NCBI GenBank assembly: GCA_018711625.1
Contig: DVID01000010.1
Coordinates: 1-37,814 of the forward strand
Length of the DNA: 37,814 nucleotides
Direction: 5' to 3'
Source of the DNA: Candidatus Limicola stercorigallinarum
GTDB lineage: Bacteria; Actinomycetota; Coriobacteriia; Coriobacteriales; Coriobacteriaceae
A program made the translations under genes and the position numbers. The notes below the pieces were generated by a model. That model was not told the DNA's origin and made no database searches. It saw nothing but the letters and a program-made list of their open reading frames with translations. This document shows, in pieces, positions 14,042 through 17,579 of this stretch (position 1 is the first letter of the stretch; each line of letters begins with the position of its first letter).

Positions 14042-15424
<1,383 letters not shown>

Positions 15425-15442
15425 CGGCACATGTCGTAAAGT

Positions 15443-15467
15443 TTCGGTGCTCCGTAAGAGCGCCGAA
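15443..15467 (+). terminator. Hairpin just after gdhA
   Basis: A 10-bp stem (one G-U pair) with a CGTAA loop begins 19 bases after the gdhA stop. It is not followed by a T-run, so it is a weak terminator or an mRNA 3' stabiliser. Confidence 0.4.
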
Positions 15468-15513
15468 GATACTTGCAAATTGAGCTGCAACAAATGCGCT
15501 CACTGGATAGGCA

Positions 15514-15548
15514 AGAGGAGCATGGCGGGATGCCCGCCATGCTCCTCT
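15514..15548 (+). terminator. Strong 16-bp hairpin after gdhA
   Basis: A perfect 16-bp inverted repeat, AGAGGAGCATGGCGGG and its complement, around an ATG loop. The trailing bases GCTGTTCTC are only slightly T-rich. Probably the main gdhA terminator, possibly acting both ways. Confidence 0.55.
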
Positions 15549-15852
15549 GCTGTTCTCAACAGTCGTTCACTGTGGTGTCTTGTAGCACGCGTCGTAAGTG
15601 CGTTAGTTATGTCATCGGTTCGGACTGCATGCAGCGTGCTCTATCGCGTGTTGCACCGATTTGTGATTCTCCGCCCGCATGCGCATGCTGCAGGATGCGG
15701 GTGGGGTGCGGAAGTGAGGCGAGCTCAATAGGCCCGCCTTGCTGGTGGTCGAGCAAGCTGGTTTTAAAATGCATAAAACAGGCAGTAAGGTGCATACGTT
15801 TTGCGTCAAAGAGAAGGGAAATCGACAGTTTCTCAGAAGCACCCTGTCTAGG

Positions 15853-16003
15853 TGGACAAAAATCCGAGAAGTCGGCGATACATCCCGGGTTTTGGCGGTG
15901 CGAATCCTCCACCGGGGCGATCCATGCAACAAAATCCCTGGATAGATTTATGCATGGACACCCCTGACGGCCCAAAATCGCCGACTTCTCTGATTTTTGT
16001 CCA
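15853..16003. repeat. 151-bp palindromic element with 27-bp terminal inverted repeats (MITE/REP-like)
   Basis: The left arm (15853-15879) begins TGGACAAAAATC and ends GAGAAGTCGGCGAT. The right arm (15977-16003) is its reverse complement with one mismatch in 27. Inside lies a second inverted pair, TCCATGCA (15921-15928) and TGCATGGA (15951-15958), around ATCC/GGAT. The flanks TCTAGG (15847-15852) and TCTGGG (16004-16009) look like a near-perfect 6-bp target duplication. No open frame inside encodes a transposase. Mobility is inference; a large cruciform or transcript hairpin is the other reading. Confidence 0.7.
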
Positions 16004-16187
16004 TCTGGGTCACTGGATTCTGATTTGACTGACCGTGTGAGGCCGGGCTGCGGCCTCAGGTGTGTCACCGTCGCTAGGTATGTTTGCTTTTCGGCTGGCA
16101 GCGGTACGCTACCAGCCGAAGATTGTAGATGGGCAAACTGGGGCTGCGTGTTGGCGGTGATTTCACTCATGCGCTGGCCGCTGCGCG

Positions 16188-17243
16188 CTAGCAGGCGGGC
16201 CAGCCAAATGCTGTGCGTAAACCATTGAGGAGTTCGATCTGCTTGACACCATAACCGCTCGTTCTGTTGCGATAGCGCATACCTGCGCGCTGGTACAACA
16301 GGCGCGCAATCGATTCGAGCGCTTCGATGCGCCTCAATTGCTCGCGGTTGATAACGATAGTGGTGATGCCCATAGCCTCAAGCCCCGCTGCGCGTTTGTC
16401 GTCATGGAGGCGTGCTCCTGGCTGCTCGTGATACGAGCCGTTGTATTCCAACGTGGCACGCGCCGCGGTCACGTAGGCGTCGCAAATAGCGTAGGGCATA
16501 CCAGCGGCTTTCTGTGCGTCATCAGAGAAGTCGACTTGATGGTTGAGGATCATCTCTTTGATTGCGAACCCACCCCGCGCAAATGGCGCATGGTAAAGCG
16601 ATGCCATAATGGCCTCACCGGGGGAGCGCGCGTCGTCGAGCGCACAACGAGCAGCAGGGATAGCCCGCGAGCAACCGCGTAGGGCCGAGAGCTTCTTGAG
16701 CTTTCGCTGAAGTTCTTTTGCGTGCAAGGCAGATTCGGCTTTTGCGTAGTTCTGCGATTCGTTCTCTGGTGATGCGCGCCACACTACACCCGCGCGGTGA
16801 TCTTCTGGAAGCGAAAATGCTCCACAGAGCTCTTGAATAAGTGCCAGCACCTCAGGAAAGCAGTGTGTTTGAGCATATTGGGCAACCACAACGGCCGGCG
16901 CTACGACATAGATCCCTGGACTCATTTCAAGGATGCTGCCCGCAGGAAGCGGCGTACTAACAATGTGGCACCGGAACTCCGGCCTTGTGCGTTTGAGTGC
17001 TTTGCTCGAGCTGAGTACATCAATGCGGTAGCTAGAATCTTCGTGATTCCAAAGCCCGAGCCGGCACAACGTGTCCAGGTCGGCCAGCTGCCTGCCGATT
17101 ACGCATGAGCTGAGCGCCCATTGCTGTTCCATGGTGTCCAACGGTCGCCAAGGCAGATACGCGTACCGACGACGAGCAACGCGTATGGCGCGTAAGGCGG
17201 CCATATGAGAGATGACGATTGTTTGGCTGGGGACATATTCCAT
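16188..17243 (-). CDS. Protein with DUF559-like (PD-(D/E)XK) C-terminus, AbiEi-antitoxin-like architecture
   Basis: Function unknown. The start at 17243 (MEYVPSQ) is chosen because AAGGAG is 7 nt upstream on the minus strand; an in-frame start at 17273 lacks a site. The N-terminus has ISHMAALRAIRVARRRY, resembling proteins that start with a short helical domain before a nuclease-like tail. Residues 205-310 fit a DUF559/Vsr-type fold: Glu210 in an early helix, CDAY (Asp255), ATLEYNGSYHE (Glu266, His272), then DDKRAAGLEAMGITTIVI (Asp281/282, Arg284). In actinobacteria such tails often sit in AbiEi-type antitoxin-related proteins, but no partner toxin gene adjoins it here. Residues 164-190 are Lys/Ala-rich helix. 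It ends in a palindrome-rich non-coding region. Confidence 0.6.
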   Translation of the reverse strand: MEYVPSQTIVISHMAALRAIRVARRRYAYLPWRPLDTMEQQWALSSCVIGRQLADLDTLCRLGLWNHEDSSYRIDVLSSSKALKRTRPEFRCHIVSTPLPAGSILEMSPGIYVVAPAVVVAQYAQTHCFPEVLALIQELCGAFSLPEDHRAGVVWRASPENESQNYAKAESALHAKELQRKLKKLSALRGCSRAIPAARCALDDARSPGEAIMASLYHAPFARGGFAIKEMILNHQVDFSDDAQKAAGMPYAICDAYVTAARATLEYNGSYHEQPGARLHDDKRAAGLEAMGITTIVINREQLRRIEALESIARLLYQRAGMRYRNRTSGYGVKQIELLNGLRTAFGWPAC

Positions 17244-17579
17244 GGGTGTTCTCCTTTGTGTGAACACCATCAAACTACGGGCGCCGCCCGGCTGGGAAGC
17301 ATGTGTTCATAGCTTTCGGTAAACGGTATCTACCTGCTGAAACAGAAAGATTCGACGTACATTTCTGTAAGACGGATGCGACAAATTGGTAAGAATTAGG
17401 GAAGGTTGCGGCAAAGCTATAGAGCAGACTCGCGCGTATCGCCACGGGGCAGAGGAGCGAGAGGTTTCATGGTCGTTTTGTTTGCGGGGCTAGTCAGGCT
17501 GTTCGGCACCTTCAGCGAGCGTGCTTCTTCGATACACTGGCATCAAACTACAAAAGCGCGAAGAGAGAGGACGGGGAGC
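17244..17579. other. Divergent intergenic region upstream of the hydroxylase operon
   Basis: About 336 bases between the DUF559-like gene (minus) and the hydroxylase FAD subunit (plus). It contains the AAGGAG site of the minus gene and a weak plus-strand promoter candidate, TTCAGC (17511-17516) and TACACT (17533-17538), with a 16-nt spacer. The FAD-subunit frame stays open upstream to 17406, but that part does not align with the family and has no ribosome site. Nothing else was recognised. Confidence 0.45.

Follow-up and report, generated by a model that had tools for sequence, protein, structure and literature searches.

Inverted-repeat elements with helically phased lengths in gut Coriobacteriaceae suggest ends drawn together by a putative protein

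The element behind gdhA and its copies

The gap behind gdhA in Candidatus Limicola stercorigallinarum raises the question of what its long inverted repeat is: a mobile element, a protein site on the DNA or a structured RNA. The window, which is the whole stretch of 37,814 nucleotides that was analysed, is contig C48 of a 1.96-Mb draft genome in 49 contigs (G000). The first-pass annotation had described a 151-bp unit with 27-bp terminal inverted repeats and an inner palindromic pair in a 763-bp gap. Reading of the sequence confirmed the unit, its arms, the inner pair and the placement in the gap (Table 1). The right half of the inner pair contains the inner TGCATA box, and the pair is lost in the copies of G002, the genome of Collinsella sp. 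An2. With covariance model R1, built from its own family with this copy in the training set, the window copy scores 137 bits.

Table 1. Features of the window around the inverted-repeat element
Feature	Position	Strand	Basis or remark
gdhA	14069-15424	+	PF00208
Gap holding the element, 763 bp	15425-16187		between gdhA and the 361-aa gene
361-aa gene	16188-17273	-	DUF559 match below threshold only
Inverted-repeat element (core unit), 151 bp	15853-16003	+	direct sequence reading; 1 of 10 genome copies
Left arm, 27 bp, TGGACAAAAATCCGAGAAGTCGGCGAT; bipartite site TGGACAAAA-NNNN-GAGAAGTCGGCGAT	15853-15879	+	sequence; arm conservation in sister copies
Right arm, inverted copy of the left arm, reverse complement TGGACAAAAATCAGAGAAGTCGGCGAT	15977-16003	-	26/27 match
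Inner palindromic pair, TCCATGCA (15921-15928) and TGCATGGA (15951-15958)	15921-15958	.	sequence
Larger repeated unit, ~236 bp: left extension and element	15770-16003	+	common to 6/10 copies
Box 1, TGCATA, 83 bp 5' of the left arm	15770-15775	+	position kept in most copies of three genus members; near it in G051
Box 2, TGCATA, 62 bp 5' of the left arm, 21 bp from box 1	15791-15796	+	box-position count
Inner inverted TGCATA box (TATGCA on +), at 97 of 151	15949-15954	-	fixed position 97-100 in G000, G001, G002 and G051 elements

A strong GC-rich hairpin (GAGGAGCATGGCGGG..CCCGCCATGCTCCTC) was seen by eye at 15515-15547, about 90 bp past the gdhA stop. It is probably the terminator of gdhA itself and would separate this gene from the element; a terminator scan that requires a T run did not list it. 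Homologues of the 361-aa gene adjoin elements in G001, G002 and G005, and a paralogue lies elsewhere in G000. The presence of a DUF559-like gene beside the element was judged not significant; it recurs at few loci.

When G000 was searched with the unit, ten dispersed copies were found on ten contigs, each 151-152 bp long. They are 70-88% identical to the window copy over the 151-bp unit and are best conserved in the arms. The flanks differ, so that the several copies with varied flanks that had been named as support for mobility are present. In six copies, the window copy included, a left extension of about 84 bp (window 15770-15852) that starts at a TGCATA box is shared, and the copied unit there is therefore about 236 bp. 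The other four have the 151-bp unit in common and differ in their left flanks. Counted from the left arm, the similarity between the window copy and the copy on contig C37 spans -82 to +153 (236 bp, 85.6% identity). Almost every within-genome comparison shows a sharp right edge of the element (TTTGTCCA). The neighbours of the G000 copies are unrelated housekeeping genes, and no transposase was found among 30 neighbour genes scanned in Pfam. The gene context of the copies showed no regular pattern; the 19 loci of the first two species lie between convergent, tandem and, in a few cases, divergent genes.

The single-strand fold of the element has -85 kcal/mol (z = -9). None of 200 shuffles was equally stable, and the inverted-repeat structure is therefore not due to chance. 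If the long hairpin served as a structured RNA or a two-way transcription terminator, this would agree with the very stable fold, with the T runs at the arm ends and with the intergenic position. However, we regard this reading as unlikely. The copies lie between genes in all three orientations, no Rfam match was found in the window gap (a lone sub-threshold chance match lies outside the element), and no sigma-70-type promoter was found there.

Relatives and the change of the arms

Of 64 Coriobacteriaceae genomes, 27, from five of six genera, gave matches at an E of 0.1 or better to a covariance model built on 23 elements from four genomes. The distribution is patchy, and many Collinsella genomes were without a match. 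The arms are lineage-specific around a scaffold close to TGnnCAAAA..., with TGGTCAAAATCCGGAGAAATCAACGATT in G051, TGTGCAAATATTCGAGCTATGGACGATT in G003 and G005, and TGGACAAAAATGACGCTAGTCGGTATTT in G029. G001 and G002 are the two other species compared from the genus of the window genome; since G002 is Collinsella sp. An2, the host was placed among the gut members of the family. The nine elements of G002 have the outer arm TGGACAAA and TGTA in place of GGCGAT as the inner arm. They are 151-153 bp long, with one of 162, and their interiors mostly cannot be aligned with those of G000.

A single copy conserved at the same locus in relatives would have suited a gdhA-linked regulatory RNA, as had been pointed out at the start. 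This was found in part: the gap behind gdhA is occupied in G001 and G002 too, by an element that has the same architecture and points the same way but carries different arms (TGTGCAAAAAATCGATTTGTCGG in the 152-bp element of G001, TGTTCAAAAATCTATTTTCTCGGC in the 160-bp element of G002). However, the element is neither single-copy nor specific to gdhA. The idea that the element had inserted behind gdhA only recently, with the site still empty in a sister species, was rejected, because both of them carry an element there. The arm of the G001 gdhA-site element is also that of the other G001 loci, and therefore the arms change in concert within a genome, even at a site common to several species. 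The closest relative of the window copy is another G000 copy and not one of the gdhA-site counterparts, and thus whole units have been copied or replaced within the genome.

An element of the G001 arm type and its flanks are nearly identical at L281 of G001 and L296 of G002, although the gdhA proteins have clearly diverged. This suggests a recent horizontal transfer of the region between the two species.

At two loci that recur in several Collinsella species, the length is constant (213 and 215 bp). G003 and G005 both retain an element at one uppP locus, although its interior has diverged strongly. A uppP locus common to two genera was rejected, since the G001 copy lies on the opposite side of the gene.

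In ten sister pairs, the divergence was 6.7% in the arms versus 23.4% in the interiors (Fisher p 1.6e-18), and the interiors of these pairs, about 1030 sites, had only 3 gap columns. The orthologous 215-bp Collinsella element has up to 40 changes in 161 interior positions with zero gaps, and at most 3 in 54 arm positions; the flanks of this locus are mostly about 3-11% changed, with one unrelated right flank (L243). The arms and the length are protected, unlike what is expected of dead miniature transposon copies. The copies are either used in place or subject to continuous homogenisation and turnover.

Changes on both sides were observed in 14 of 22 arm pairs, almost without G-U intermediates. 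One-sided changes that keep the pairing are limited to the innermost pair, and many unpaired cells are A-A or T-T, which speaks against the RNA or terminator. Since the left and right arms change together and unpaired cells are often A-A or T-T, the arms fit better as two copies of one predicted double-stranded binding site than as an RNA stem.

Helical phasing of lengths and boxes

The arm-to-arm lengths of 90 elements (strand duplicates merged, one partial G061 match entered as 161) cluster at 68, 150-153, 160-163, 169-174, 180-183, 193-194 and 213-217 bp. Trial periods of 5-20 bp were scanned, and p was calculated against uniform lengths for the best of 10.2-10.8. The best period was 10.50 bp for the 14 genus-level class medians (R 0.79, p 0.00025) and 10.45 bp over all 90 elements (R 0.80). 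The helical repeat of B-DNA is 10.5 bp. The covariance model has a smooth insertion penalty and no reason to prefer this period. For an RNA loop, length steps of 10.5 bp would be meaningless. A few lengths, such as 169 and 181, agree poorly with a 10.5-bp lattice.

Composite elements in G001 and G051 have extra arms at 68-69 bp (inverted) and at 83 or 103 bp (direct). One G051 element (L224:18939-19172) is nested or doubled, with a 68-bp arm pair within a 234-bp arm pair and an arm spacing of 83 bp on both sides.

TGCATA boxes were counted 11 to 23 times each in the left flanks of G000, G001, G002 and G051, compared with about 1 expected (in G000, 23 versus 1.5). Their main positions are near -83, -73, -62 and -53 in the left flank and near 38, 48, 59 and 98 in the interior, with +48 as a further position in G001. 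A period of about 10 bp describes their spacing better than one of exactly 10.5, and the phasing of the boxes is therefore supportive but not decisive. G003, G005, G029 and G061 lack the left boxes, which are placed beyond the arms; the 181-bp elements of G003 and G005 have boxes in the interior only. Together, the symmetric arms, the phasing and the constraint point to paired double-stranded protein sites and DNA looping rather than to an RNA hairpin.

With a probability of roughly 0.48, we favour a non-autonomous miniature mobile element, Correia- or REPIN-like and of helix-quantised length, with ends that would be paired as double-stranded DNA by a lineage-specific protein. The two arms of 25-28 bp would be the double-stranded binding sites of one such protein, most likely a transposase or recombinase supplied in trans, which would pair them by looping the intervening 150-215 bp. 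A host DNA-bending factor at the phased TGCATA boxes may assist the loop. If pairing is possible only when the arms face the same side of the helix, lengths would shift by whole helical turns and indels would be removed, with the interior sequence free to vary. Copies would multiply within a genome and be inherited vertically, and every arm in a genome would follow the specificity of the current protein. To the copies, geometry, phasing, symmetric arm change and constraint read from the sequences, this proposal adds an arm-binding protein, a loop and mobility, which we infer. It is favoured because helical quantisation has a precedent in Paramecium and because Correia elements of near-equal lengths carry an IHF site proposed for synapsis. 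Against it count the negative results on a recombinase, an autonomous copy, a target duplication and a clean empty site, the conservation of the arms after the copies have separated, the gdhA site occupied in three species in the same orientation, the left boxes outside the arms and their absence in four genomes, and the poor lattice fit of lengths such as 169 and 181.

The main rival is a host architectural or DNA-looping site, a possibility that we hold as tentative. Here, a fast-evolving DNA-binding protein and a TGCATA-binding factor would form a looped complex that organises or insulates the chromosome at about 10-20 intergenic sites in each genome, with copies arising by rare duplication and each kept by selection. 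Arms and length conserved at fixed loci while the interior changes, the gdhA site retained in three species, the boxes at fixed and nearly helix-phased positions, and the uppP element kept in G003 and G005 despite its interior would all agree with such a site. The patchy distribution with many Collinsella genomes lacking a match, the gain of copies and the empty sites, the different arms of closely related species and the irregular gene context argue against it.

Mobility and comparison with known systems

The TCTAGG/TCTGGG flanks had been taken for a near target duplication. The flanks exist, but they are not a duplication: flush left and right flanks matched over 0.46 bp in 63 copies, compared with 0.51 bp for shuffled pairs, and no target duplication was found in these copies or for the unit bounded by box 1. 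Empty sites in relatives were found in part: three orthologous positions in a sister species lack the element. None of these is a clean pre-insertion site, and all three species carry an element behind gdhA. The elements resemble MITEs in having terminal inverted repeats, short length, no coding capacity and several dispersed copies, and differ in that no target duplication was found. In these draft assemblies, no transposase gene with matching ends, no recombinase for the arms and no autonomous copy was found. The idea of a non-autonomous mobile element or large REP-like unit thus stands on the dispersed copies and the three sites without an element, with the patchy distribution as a further point for mobility, and loses the target duplication, a matching transposase and a place in the RAYT/REP system.

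In the main set of stretches, every arm that could be recognised had a partner. Neither single nor widely spaced arms were found in G000, G002 or the other stretches examined; the assemblies are drafts of 49-110 contigs, in which insertion sequences can be lost. BLAST of the window unit gave no match in plasmids or phages, and the arms of four other lineages gave no match in viral contigs. The first arm pattern gave five unpaired matches in viral sequences and 26 in genome contigs; of the latter, the two Collinsella sp. An2 contigs were inspected, and both had true elements. No recurrent neighbour gene family stood out as a candidate recombinase, and the most frequent of the shared families look like transporters and regulators. 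A composite transposon formed by two G001 elements 2.6 kb apart was rejected, since inspection by eye showed ordinary genes in between (deoC- and udp-like).

G000, G001 and G002 each have one gene for a RAYT-like tyrosine transposase (L163, L164 and L165), flanked by species-specific REPIN-like palindromes (GGGGACGTGTTCC.., GGGGACGGGTTCATT.. and GGGGACGGGTACAAATG..). G051 has many palindromes of this kind, about 70 bp long, and further loci are L169, L170, L221, L228 and L229. The elements might be REPINs mobilised by this single-copy REP-associated tyrosine transposase (RAYT), given the Y1_Tnp gene in each of the three genomes and the dispersed copies, lineage-specific ends and diverse spacer that resemble REPINs (PMC8049555). 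We consider this very improbable, because the RAYT genes are flanked by the other short palindromes (GGGGACGTGTTCC.., 71-78 bp in G000) and never by these arms, and because REPIN processing on single-stranded hairpins would not impose helical phasing. RAYT as a partner of the window-type elements was therefore not supported.

A second, larger set of inverted-repeat elements of 127-159 bp has many arm families and a common core GAGTAG..CTACTC and ACCTGCGGTTTT. It was seen at L216, L220-L223, L225, L227 and L229 of G051, at L201:951-1083 and L210:11425-11558 of G001 and at L156:13522-13664 of G002. In one of its arm families the distances are 115 and 125-126 bp, about one helical turn apart. Its core motif AAAACCGCAGG also occurs inside window-type G051 elements, and both sets may therefore be one superfamily.

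A helix-quantised length would be evidence, readable from the sequence alone, that repeat ends are joined by a protein as double-stranded DNA, and would separate the family from hairpin-type repeats such as REPINs. Half-turn inserts would be predicted to abolish function and whole-turn inserts would not. Such a length also points to a putative arm-binding protein with a specificity that has shifted between species. A broader and tentative proposal is a family-wide element class in which evolution itself would have run a helical-twist experiment, where paired sites for a fast-changing putative protein are kept in helical register across genera by a new synaptic or looping complex and the arms of all copies in a genome change together. 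No description of such a repeat class in gut Coriobacteriaceae was found in the literature searched, and the family adds one.

Among known systems, the GTAG/CGTC REPs and the TIR repeat families, some of which are not linked to REPs (PMC3733652), are likewise repeated palindromes. The REPs, however, are 20-40 bp with tight hairpin loops, and their GTAG motif does not border the family arms. REPINs with their RAYT have two inverted conserved ends and a diverse spacer, are dispersed between genes, non-autonomous and long-lived (PMC8049555), as is seen here. The family differs in arms of 25-28 bp, in a length set by helical turns and in the RAYT being tied to a different palindrome; neither GTAG nor a strong hairpin within an arm was found, and membership fails because the RAYT link is absent.

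Correia elements (CREE) of Neisseria have inverted repeats around a core and lengths of 153-157 and 69-73 bp, close to the 150-153 and 68 bp of the family, and an IHF site in the long form has been proposed for end synapsis (PMC2649163). The CREE arm variants AACAAAAA or AAATTTAAA resemble the family arms CAAAAATC and CAAATTTT, in a comparison limited to the motif printed in PMC2649163. CREE duplicate their target, whereas the Coriobacteriaceae family does not in 63 copies, and for this reason membership fails. In addition, the arms of the family vary by lineage, two elements of one genome may have unrelated interiors, and TGCATA boxes are found beyond the arms.

The internal eliminated sequences of Paramecium are eukaryotic, excised in development, far more numerous and mostly under 150 bp. 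However, their sizes have a periodicity of about 10 bp, which was read as looping between the ends in the excision complex or transpososome, with reference to helical-twist work on IS50 (PMC3464196). In the Coriobacteriaceae family, ends held about whole helical turns apart likewise suggest that a putative protein pulls both ends together, as in miniature mobile elements.
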